Origin: Anaerobacillus sp. CMMVII
GTDB taxonomy: Bacteria > Bacillota > Bacilli > Bacillales > Anaerobacillaceae
NCBI RefSeq assembly: GCF_025377685.1
Contig: NZ_JACEHK010000008.1
Span: forward strand, 186,001-250,000
Reading direction: 5' to 3'
DNA length: 64,000 bases
Part shown: positions 30,772 through 46,433 of the stretch, piece by piece
How the letters are laid out: each line of letters starts with the position of its first letter
How positions within the stretch are numbered: position 1 is the stretch's first letter
Notes under the pieces: model-generated
Databases searched by the model: none
Seen by the model: the letters and a program-made list of their open reading frames with translations, nothing else
What the model was told of the DNA's origin: nothing
Made by a program: the position numbers and the translations under genes

Positions 30772-30953
30772 TTGACACTCCCTATTTGATAATTAGTTTC
30801 TACTATATGTTTCGCTGCAACAAATCAAATTCCTCTTTAGTATGCTAAAAGGAGAGGTGTAAGAAAATAGTTTGGTCCTTTTGGCTATTTGAAAGCTGCA
30901 ATTTTAAAAATAGTCTATACTAATAATTAATAATGAAGCTAAGGAGGAAAATG

Positions 30954-31604
30954 ATGGTCCATAAAAAAAATGTAAGCATAAAAGTCTATGAAACAGCAAC
31001 CTTTGGAATGGGGTGATTTTGGGGGCCGGATGCTCAGTTTGGGCATTTACCTGGAGTACTTAGAACACGTGTTGGCTATGCAGGTGGAACTGCGGAAAAT
31101 CCTACATACCGAAACATGGGTGATCATACGGAAACGCTCGAGATAGATTTTGATCCAACCTTACTTTCATTCGAAGAGGTTGTTAAGCTTTTTTGGAAGA
31201 GCCATAATCCTAATCGAGCAAATTACCGTGATAGACAGTATATCTCGATATTCTTCTTTCATAATGAACAGCAAAAAGAAGTGCTAATCAAGGAAAAAAG
31301 AAGATTAGAAGGCTTGAAAAATATTGAGATAGAAACAGAAATTGTCGCTTATTCAAGATTTTACCTAGCAGAAATGTACCACCAAAAGTATTATTTGAAA
31401 AGGTATCCAGATGCCGTTGAAAAGGTGTACCAATTTTACAAGTCTGAAGAAGAATTCATGAATTCTACATTGGTAGCAAGACTAAATGGCTTTGTAAAAG
31501 GGTATGGGAAGTTAGCAGATATTAGAAAGGAAGTCGAGCATTGGCATCTAAGTGAGGATGCTCGTGGAAAAGTGCTCGATGTAATTAGCAGCATTAAATG
31601 GTAG
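30954..31604 (+). CDS. msrA: peptide methionine sulfoxide reductase MsrA, candidate selenoprotein
   Basis: MsrA reduces methionine-S-sulfoxide in proteins through a catalytic Cys in a G-C-F-W-G motif. Here the frame from ATG 30954 (behind AAGGAGG) reads TATFGMG, then TGA at 31014-31016 (codon 21), then [20 protein letters not shown] and [20 protein letters not shown], and stays open to a TAG at 31602-31604. Translation upstream and downstream is fully MsrA-like, so TGA stands exactly where the catalytic Cys belongs. Selenocysteine MsrA proteins are known in some Firmicutes. A SECIS-like hairpin follows the TGA. The C-terminal 70 residues ([20 protein letters not shown]) are an extension of this subgroup. 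Alternatives are a C/T-to-A base error or a stop mutation. No sel genes lie in the window. Confidence 0.75.
31026..31054 (+). promoter_or_regulatory. SECIS-like hairpin after the msrA TGA
   Basis: Upper stem ATGCTC (31030-31035) pairs with GGGCAT (31041-31046, one G-U pair) around the loop AGTTT, which has G in second position. A lower stem CCGG (31026-31029) pairs with CCTGG (31050-31054) with a bulged T. The apical loop begins 19 nt after the TGA. Bacterial SECIS elements lie inside the coding region, with the loop about 16-37 nt after the UGA and a G early in the loop, so the geometry fits. SelB binding is inference. Confidence 0.6.
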
Positions 31605-31618
31605 GTAGGTGTAGTGAA

Positions 31619-32566
31619 ATGCAAGCAACTTTTGCTGGGGGGCGATCCTGGTACTTAGTTCCGATATTCAAAAAAAGCAGAGGTGTGATCGAAGTTCTGT
31701 CAGGCTACACGGGTGGCCATATCGAAAATCCGAGCTATAAAAATGTTCAGACAGGAACTACTGGTCATTATGAAGCTATCCAAATGGTATACGACCCTAA
31801 CGAGATTTCATATCAAGAACTCCTTAATATATATTGGAAGCAAATAAACCCAACTGATCCTAACGGGCAATTCAAAGACCGAGGGAGCCAATTCAAAACT
31901 GCGATCTTTTATCATAATGAAGAACAAAGATTGTTGGCAGAATCTTTCAAAACAATGCTCTTTGAGGCAAAACATTTTTCTGAACCGATTGTTACAGCTA
32001 TTTTGCCATTTTCAAGATTTTATCGTGCGGCGGACTATCTTCAAGATTTCTTCAGTACAAATCCGTTTCGTTATAAACTTTATGTGGAAAGATCTGGGAG
32101 AGAAAAAGGACTTAAGGAAATCTGGAAGGATCAACTACAAGATGAAGAATTGCTACAAAGGTTAACAACCCTTCAATATCAAGTGACTCAATTAAATTAC
32201 ACCGAACCGCCTTTTGAGAATAAATACTGGGATAATCAGCGTGAAGGTCTTTACGTTGACATTGTATCAGGTGAGCCTTTATTTCTTTCGGTAGATCAAT
32301 ATGACTCTGGTTGTGGATGGCCAAGCTTTACAAAGCCAATCGATGAAAAAAGTTTGAGCGAAGAGATGGACGTTAGTCATGACATGGTTAGAATTGAGGT
32401 TCGAAGCACAAAAGCAAATTCCCACTTAGGGCATGTATTTCCTGATGGACCTAAAGAACAAGGGGGATTAAGGTATTGTATTAATTCCGCAGCACTAAGG
32501 TTTATTCCAAAAGAGTCTTTAGAAAAGGAAGGGTACGGGCAATACATAAAACACTTTTCTAAATAG
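31619..32566 (+). CDS. msrB: MsrA-MsrB fusion with degenerate MsrA domain
   Basis: 315 residues from ATG 31619. The N-terminal MsrA domain (about 1-160) keeps the fold motifs [20 protein letters not shown] and [20 protein letters not shown], but the catalytic GCFWC is GRSWY, the usual V-C-S/T-G is NVQTG, and the conserved Y-H-Q-D-Y is YLQDFF. It should be inactive. The C-terminal MsrB domain (about 185-310) is intact: [10 protein letters not shown]-type [24 protein letters not shown] and the catalytic Cys in [14 protein letters not shown]. It reduces methionine-R-sulfoxide. It starts 14 nt after the candidate selenoprotein MsrA, so the pair probably forms one operon covering both sulfoxide isomers. 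Confidence 0.85.
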
Positions 32567-34602: not shown

Positions 34603-34743
34603 CTGATCTACGTTAGTGAAGTTACGAAAAACACAATTCGTCATTTACAATGTAAAATAGGTTTAGTACCATGTTAAAAAAAGGATTCGAAAGAACTTTT
34701 ACTGAATACTCCCTAATGGAGCTTACAAACTGGAGTGAAGACA

Positions 34744-35505
34744 ATGACGACAATTTCTCATTTATTTTATGATCCTTCGATAGGAAAGAAGAAGCCTGAA
34801 AGCATCATCAATAGGGCAGCAAGTTGTCCATTTTGTGGGAAAGCTGATCTTGAACAAATACTTGATGAGGAAGGACCTTTCATTTTAGTGAAAAATAAGT
34901 TTCCGACCCTACAAAATACGTATCAAACGGTATTAATCGAAACAACCTCATGCGAAGAAGAGTTTTCAAGTTATCAAAAAGAACACTTATATCACTTCTT
35001 TGATTTTGCCTTTAAACATTGGTTTGAGATGATGAATAATGGAGAGTATAAATCAGTTCTCTTATTAAAGAACTATGGTCCCTTATCAGGTGGCTCAATC
35101 CACCACTCACACTCGCAAATTGTGGGTCTAAAAGATTTGGATTACCGTGAGGCAGTAACTCTAGAGCAATTTGAAGGTATCACAATTGCGCAAAAAAGTT
35201 CCGTTATTTTTACCCTTTCTACAAAGCCTAAAATGGGATTTTACGAGTTTAATGTCATAATGGAAAATCTTGAAGATCGGAAGGTAATGGCTGACTTCAC
35301 TCAAATGGCTGTTCACTATATCTTGAACCATTTCCCGTCGAAATGTGGAAGTTACAATTTATTCTTTTATCAGATGGAGGGGAAAATACTTGTGAAAGTT
35401 ATTCCTCGCTTCGTCACATCGCCATTATTTGTGGGTTATTCTATTGCACAAGTAGCGGTAAATCTAGAGGATATTGTTGAACAAATGAAGGAGCTTTATT
35501 TTTGA
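34744..35505 (+). CDS. DUF4931 / GalT-like HIT-fold protein
   Basis: 253 residues. A zinc-site-like SCPFCGKADLEQILDEEG, the NKFPTLQNTYQTVLIETTSC strand and a histidine triad-like motif GGSIHHSHSQIVGL (about residue 118) match the galactose-1-phosphate uridylyltransferase/HIT superfamily branch annotated DUF4931 in Bacillaceae. It probably acts on a nucleotide derivative; the substrate is unknown. ATG 34744 fits GGAG better than GTG 34735. The next gene is 17 nt downstream. Confidence 0.75.
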   Translation: MTTISHLFYDPSIGKKKPESIINRAASCPFCGKADLEQILDEEGPFILVKNKFPTLQNTYQTVLIETTSCEEEFSSYQKEHLYHFFDFAFKHWFEMMNNGEYKSVLLLKNYGPLSGGSIHHSHSQIVGLKDLDYREAVTLEQFEGITIAQKSSVIFTLSTKPKMGFYEFNVIMENLEDRKVMADFTQMAVHYILNHFPSKCGSYNLFFYQMEGKILVKVIPRFVTSPLFVGYSIAQVAVNLEDIVEQMKELYF

Positions 35506-35708
35506 GCTAGTAGGAGGTAGGTATGCAAAAAATTAAAAAACAAGACATAAACCATTTATATGAAACACAAAAAGTTGTCTTGTATTGGTTATTAGGAATG
35601 ATTTATCATTTTTGGCCAGAAAACCCCCACTTCAAGGAGTTTACGAGTAAGTGGGGGATGAATGGCTATTTTTTTCACAAAACCAGAACGTACGATCTTG
35701 TTTTGTGG

Positions 35709-35714
35709 TATAAT
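35709..35714 (+). promoter_or_regulatory. extended -10 promoter of tnpB
   Basis: TATAAT preceded by TGG (TGnTATAAT pattern), 25 bp before the tnpB start codon. No good -35 box is seen. Confidence 0.5.
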
Positions 35715-35739
35715 ATGGTTAGAGAGTGAGGTGAAAAAT

Positions 35740-36912
35740 ATGGTTGTTAAGAAAGCCTATAAATATCGTATCTACCCAACAAAGTCACAACTAGAGCTCA
35801 TCAATAAAAACATGGGATGTGCGCGTTTCGTGTTTAACTTCTTCCTTGCCAAGCAAAAACAGAAAGATGCCTATTGGTACATCGTGGAAGAAATGAAGCA
35901 ATCCGGGCAGCTTCCTACAAATGCTTGGAAAGGTGAATTCTTTAAAAAATACGACTCGGTAAAAATGGTTCGTTTGTTAAAGAAACACTATCCGTTTTTA
36001 AAAGAGGTTGATAGTATTTCTCTCCAAAAATCCGTAGAAAACTTAAATAATGCGTATACTCGCTACTACAAAAAACAAGCCAACGCTCCTCGGTTTAAGT
36101 CAAAGAAGAACAAGATTCAATCGTACACCACAAAACAGACCAATGGTAACATCATGGTTTTGGAACGTTACATCAAGTTACCAAAACTCGGACTCGTTCG
36201 TTTTGCGAAAAGTCGTGAAGTGAACGGTCGAATTATAAATGCGACGATTCGGCGCAGTCCAAGTGGGAAATACTTCATTAGTATTTTAGTAGAAACAAAG
36301 GTCGAAAAACTGCCTGAAACCCATTCATCTGTCGGTGTCGATGTCGGTCTTAAAGCTTTTGCGACTCTTTCGGATGGTACTGTCTATCAAAATCCTAAAT
36401 GGTTTCATTCGCTTGAACAAAAGTTAGTAAAGGCTCAACAAATCCTTTCCAGACGAAACACCGGTTCATCCAATTGGTACAAACAACGAAAAAAGGTTGC
36501 TCTGATTCATGAAAAGATTATGAACGCTCGTACAGACTTCTTACAAAAACTTTCAACCAATCTTGTCAAAAACCACGACATCATTGGGATGGAAGATCTT
36601 TCGGTACAAAACATGGCAAAGAATAAAAACCTTGCCAAGGCCATTAGTGAAGCTTCATGGTATCAATTTCGTCAAATGCTTGAATACAAAGCAAGGTGGT
36701 ATGGCAAACAAGTAGTAGTAGTCGCTAAAAACTACCCAAGTAGTCAGCTGTGTTCGTGTTGTGGCTACAAGAATAAAGACGTGAAACATCTGGCGTTGCG
36801 TGAATGGGAATGTCCATCATGTAGGAGCTATCACCAAAGAGATGTAAACGCAGGAATGAATCTTCGTAATGAAGCATTACGATTAACTGTCGGGACGATA
36901 GGGATCGCCTAA
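35740..36912 (+). CDS. tnpB: TnpB, IS605-type RNA-guided nuclease
   Basis: 390 residues. The N-terminal OrfB helix-turn-helix is [20 protein letters not shown]. The RuvC-like motifs are intact: Asp in [18 protein letters not shown], Glu in [16 protein letters not shown], and the last Asp in [17 protein letters not shown]. The zinc finger has CSCCGYKN and ECPSC. TnpB proteins use an RNA transcribed from the 3' end of the element to cut DNA, which favours retention of the element. All catalytic residues are present and the frame is undamaged, so it is potentially active. ATG 35740 follows GTGAGGTG. Confidence 0.92.
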
Positions 36913-46049: not shown

Positions 46050-46433
46050 CTTTTCAAACCTCCAAACGTTGAATAGTTTCAAGGCATTATATGTTAAAAT
46101 GCCTAATCTGTTTGGGCAAAAGGTATATTTTAGGTGCCTAATCATTTTTCTACGTAAAGATTGGGGTTCATATGTAAATAAAAAAGACGTCCCTAAGGAC
46201 GTCTTTTTGCGTATTGCGGCGAGAAACTACACTCCACATAGTGTTTACCCGAAGGCGCGTAACTCGACTTATGCAAATCAGCTCATCGCTTAATTAATAT
46301 ACCATTGATCATTCGAATTTACAATGGTTATTTTTAACAGAATCTTTATTTGCCGGCAAAATAACAAATGGGAATAGTACAATCATGGATCAACATATTT
46401 TGGAAGTAAGTGTGAATAAAGGAGGTTATTTTT
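46050..46433. other. intergenic region between divergent DUF2642 genes
   Basis: Contains a hairpin AAAAGACGTCC/GGACGTCTTTT with a CTAA loop at about 46180-46208. A 28-codon open stretch after it (RIAARNYTPHSVYPKARNST) has no convincing start. Promoters for both flanking genes must lie here, but no strong -35/-10 pair was fixed. Confidence 0.35.

Follow-up and report, generated by a model that had tools for sequence, protein, structure and literature searches.

In bacteria other than the one studied here, binding of SelB and Sec-tRNA-Sec to a bacterial SECIS (bSECIS) element results in UGA being read as selenocysteine (Sec) (PMC9312934). The published constraints on the element are a loop of 3-9 nt, a stem of 4-16 bp, a G in loop positions 1-2, a UGA-loop spacing of 16-37 nt and a minimum free energy (MFE) of -7.5 kcal/mol or lower, and the active site motif of selenoprotein MsrA is GUFWG (PMC13188914). 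Clostridium oremlandii naturally makes a selenoprotein MsrA (CoMsrA), 209 residues long with one Sec and no Cys, which is classed as 1-Cys type (PMC4333827).

The gene described here lies in a window of 64,000 nt from Anaerobacillus sp. CMMVII, the whole stretch of DNA that was analysed, and all coordinates are positions in that window unless another contig is named. The window MsrA comes from Bacilli and CoMsrA from Clostridia, but both proteins (for CoMsrA, 4LWJ, 4LWK, 4LWL, 4LWM and 4U66) have Sec, predicted in the window protein, in a GUFWG motif, a C-terminal helical domain and no Cys. The Cys-type MsrAs of Planococcus, Domibacillus, Sporosarcina and Paenibacillus are of the same family and length, with approximately 45-60% identity to the window MsrA, but have TGC or TGT in place of TGA and lack the hairpin that follows it.

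The MsrA gene and its in-frame TGA

The predicted selenoprotein MsrA gene (30954-31604, + strand) encodes 216 residues when TGA is counted as Sec (residue 21), with a PMSR domain followed by a C-terminal MsrA_helical domain. A Shine-Dalgarno-like AAGGAGG (30941-30947, +), identified by direct reading of the sequence, precedes the two likely starts, ATG 30951 and ATG 30954. The frame was open apart from a single TGA at 31014-31016 (+), the putative Sec codon, which occupied the position of the catalytic Cys of MsrA in the motif GMG-U-FWG, so that the window protein has the GUFWG active site with an in-frame TGA. Relatives had TGA or a Cys codon at exactly this place in G-[C/U]-F-W-G.

The Pfam PMSR domain matched residues 14-150 over the cut-off (135 bits) and MsrA_helical matched residues 165-202 (24.8 bits, cut-off 23.7), while the NCBIfam msrA model scored 121 bits against a cut-off of 108. 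The best matches among solved structures in the PDB were those of CoMsrA: 4LWJ, 4U66 and others aligned with residues 14-215 (E about 1e-54), so that the alignment takes in the C-terminal helical domain and, for 4LWJ, runs to the end. The window MsrA has no Cys residues and thus no resolving Cys; among 45 Sec loci, no Cys was present in 19 and one Cys in 21. Judged from these features of its sequence, the protein falls into an established MsrA subfamily, the 1-Cys/Sec type that carries a C-terminal helical domain.

The hairpin downstream of the TGA

The putative bSECIS element (31030-31046, +), delimited by comparison and by the published constraints, consists of two arms, 31030-31036 and 31040-31046, that form 7 bp and enclose an apical GUU loop (31037-31039, +). 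The original prediction had extended from 31026 to 31054 (+) and comprised a two-part stem, with CCGG (31026-31029) opposite CCTGG (31050-31054) and ATGCTC (31030-31035) opposite GGGCAT (31041-31046), and a 5-nt loop, AGTTT (31036-31040), 19 nt after the TGA. The segments and the position of the TGA were found exactly as described. The loop is better drawn as the 3-nt GUU, 20 nt after the TGA, closed by the 31036-31040 pair that covaries between A-U and G-C; an early G was present either way, first in GUU and second in AGUUU.

The claim of bacterial SECIS geometry held for all of the published constraints. The loop is 3 nt, the stem has 7 conserved bp, or 9 bp here if two G-U pairs are counted, the UGA-loop spacing is 20 nt (19 nt with the 5-nt loop) and the MFE was -10.8 to -13.6 kcal/mol in three short stretches folded with RNAfold. 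The hairpin showed no essential difference from the bSECIS consensus (PMC13188914, Figure 2), with which it shares a 7-bp upper stem, a GUU loop with G first, the closing N1-N2 pair, a location 20 nt after UGA and inside coding sequence, and an MFE under -7.5, while its primary sequence is specific to the gene family. At gathering scores, no Rfam family matched at the hairpin; the sole Rfam match in the window was elsewhere, a BsrF sRNA (46184-46289, - strand, 78 bits against 50).

The upper stem appeared in every one of the four stretches folded with RNAfold, but the fold of the single sequence was not exceptional relative to dinucleotide shuffles (z of -0.56 to -1.59), so that the stability relative to shuffled sequence that had been sought was not found, a result outweighed by the comparative evidence. 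Moreover, 16% of the synonymous variants of the window sequence folded equally well. When bSECIS-type rules were applied with a stem of at least 4 bp, about 12% of 1500 sampled window TGA triplets passed; with a stem of at least 9 bp, 15 of 2346 passed, the MsrA hairpin among them. These pass rates and the shuffle scores indicate that the hairpin by itself is only moderately unusual. Since the single-sequence fold was unexceptional and similar hairpins follow about 12% of TGAs, a comparison among homologues was needed and carries the case.

The homologues align without gaps 3' of the catalytic codon. Five core pairs, window positions 31031-31035 with 31041-31045, were scored in all distinct sequences. 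The conserved pairing that the original prediction had proposed to look for was present: 38 of the 44 distinct TGA sequences formed all five pairs, and only one pair was missing in each of the remaining six. The same pairing in Cys homologues, which it had named as evidence to the contrary, was absent, the complete core occurring in none of the 78 distinct Cys sequences. When synonymous codons were sampled according to the codon usage of the window, leaving each protein unchanged, the expected number of complete stems was 2.5 for the TGA sequences and 0.38 for the Cys sequences.

Two alignments were examined for covariation, one of 43 TGA rows and one of 44 Cys rows, the latter chosen by hand from the 78 distinct sequences so as to thin near-copies (the full 78 were used for the count of core pairs). 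RNAalifold predicted the helix on the TGA alignment and no structure on the Cys alignment. In the TGA alignment 94% of the helix cells were paired, and three helix pairs had changed on both sides: 31031-31045 (U-A/C-G), 31033-31043 (C-G/G-C) and 31036-31040 (G-C/A-U, 15 sequences). On the tree, the pair state changed among the Sec rows at least 6, at least 5 and at least 10 times, respectively. The Sec and Cys forms were clustered on the MsrA tree, with a total of 1 to 4 changes; the contrast between them therefore represents few independent events and independent-pair tests are without power; independent Sec/Cys pairs, and likewise swaps of the closing pair, were too few for a sign test. The mean MFE z relative to synonymous variants was -1.5 in the TGA set and -1.2 in the Cys set, and the MFE was left out of the argument because the mean was negative in the Cys sequences too. 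In these alignments, then, conservation of the upper stem, with compensatory changes, is confined to sequences whose catalytic codon is TGA.

The lower helix fared differently. A larger two-part stem, in which CCGG and CCTGG serve as a working lower helix, is very unlikely, even though the two segments are able to pair in the window sequence. The pairing was found in 65% of the cells in TGA sequences as against 87.5% in Cys sequences, and the lower helix was absent from the RNAalifold structure. It was therefore rejected as a conserved part of the element, leaving only the upper half of the two-part stem, and the CCGG/CCTGG pairing reflects codon and protein composition.

It is less probable still that the TGA specifies a residue other than Sec, either Trp by a change of code or Cys or a further residue by near-cognate suppression, with the hairpin a by-product of protein constraint on the motif DA[QR]FGH. 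The hairpin arms do encode conserved residues, and TGA is read as Trp in some bacteria. However, several observations speak against this reading, 1) the 38 complete stems far exceed the 2.5 expected under synonymous sampling, 2) one of the compensatory changes, in step with a change of the partner base, replaces Ala by Gly at Sec+6 and so alters the protein, so that protein constraint is no explanation of the stem, 3) the Cys homologues retain parts of the motif without the stem and 4) relatives have Cys at the catalytic position and the Sec machinery is present.

Sec machinery and occurrence in the order

The genome of the window strain has SelB (349 bits, cut-off 242), SelA (556 bits) and tRNA-Sec (58.6 bits, gathering score 47; anticodon tca according to ARAGORN), which together span no more than 11 kb on contig C6. 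Among these genes lies another (L008:15625-16677 on C6, - strand), which, judged from its sequence, probably encodes SelD, that has one in-frame TGA and a hairpin of its own, GGTCC-TGA-GGACC, with the loop 17 nt after the TGA. This SelD-like gene is likely to be a second selenoprotein gene in the genome. CoMsrA is reportedly reduced by a selenoprotein glutaredoxin, according to the title of a report by Kim et al. in 2011, whereas none of the three glutaredoxin matches in the window genome has a TGA.

An MsrA of the window kind (E of 1e-40 or better) was found in 52 of 397 genomes of the order. In 43 of the 52, drawn from several families, the match contained one TGA; in the other nine it contained none. 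Every one of the 43 TGA-bearing genomes had a SelB match over the cut-off, whereas the nine with a Cys-type MsrA had none and in this respect are unlike the window genome; the genomes are related, so this count overstates independence, but the association is without exception. The catalytic codon was TGA, TGC or TGT in the loci of most of the matched genomes and in those of Planococcus, Domibacillus, Sporosarcina, Paenibacillus, Alkalibacterium and Haloarcula.

An alternative is that the TGA arose by an inactivating nonsense mutation or a sequencing error, that the hairpin is a product of chance and that the gene is a pseudogene or starts at 31116. This agrees with the standard ORF listing (start 31116, 162 aa) and the unexceptional single-sequence fold, but is already refuted by the presence of a TGA in 43 genomes from several families, in which the protein is conserved both before and after it, by the unbroken association with SelB and by the compensatory changes that conserve the hairpin.

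The hairpin at 31030-31046 is thus almost certainly a bacterial SECIS element that makes the UGA at 31014-31016 a Sec codon in a 1-Cys/Sec MsrA. The direct basis for this assignment is sequence, conservation, covariation and the Sec machinery with its co-occurrence; the binding of SelB, the insertion of Sec and the activity of the enzyme are drawn from established knowledge. The SECIS reading of the original prediction is borne out by conservation confined to TGA sequences, by the compensatory changes and by the presence of SelA, SelB, tRNA-Sec and the TGA-bearing SelD-like gene. By analogy with the known systems, SelB carrying Sec-tRNA-Sec would bind the mRNA hairpin, the UGA would be decoded as selenocysteine and not as a stop, and the product would be a methionine-S-sulfoxide reductase A that carries Sec at its catalytic position and repairs oxidised methionine. 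The locus adds a new and well-supported case to a mechanism and an enzyme family that are both already known.

The neighbouring MsrAB fusion and wider significance

An MsrAB fusion gene (31619-32566, +) lies directly 3' of the Sec-MsrA gene. At the place of GGCFWCMV in its 29 best relatives, its MsrA half reads GGRSWYLV and is therefore without the catalytic Cys. Mean identity to the relatives was 55% for the MsrA half and 69% for the MsrB half, compared with 79% and 77% among the relatives themselves. At locus L033 (genome G313) the gene order is also Sec-MsrA followed by an MsrAB fusion, the MsrA half of which is altered too (GGCFWYMI); the two fusions are 50% identical in the MsrA half against 71% in the other. 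An ordinary second MsrA, with AGGCFWCMV (209 bits), is present elsewhere in the window strain's own genome (L019, C8:35656-36111). Further downstream in the window are a DUF4931 protein with both domains (34735-35505, +) and an ORF of 416 aa (35662-36912, +) that, on our own reading, presumably resembles a TnpB-type transposon protein.

The Sec-MsrA may conceivably now perform the MsrA function of the fusion that adjoins it in the operon, the MsrA half of which lacks the catalytic Cys and is more diverged than the MsrB half, although we consider this tentative and rather doubtful. If true, a selenoenzyme would make up for the activity that a half-dead bifunctional MsrAB lacks.

At the locus itself, a full predicted selenoprotein replaces what the standard ORF listing shows as a 162-aa fragment. 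The TGA and Cys orthologues provide a clean data set on what a bSECIS element needs, namely the upper stem and the loop, and no lower stem. Finally, the Sec-MsrA with its putative SECIS element occurs widely within one order of Bacilli, where it tracks SelB without exception among the genomes tested.
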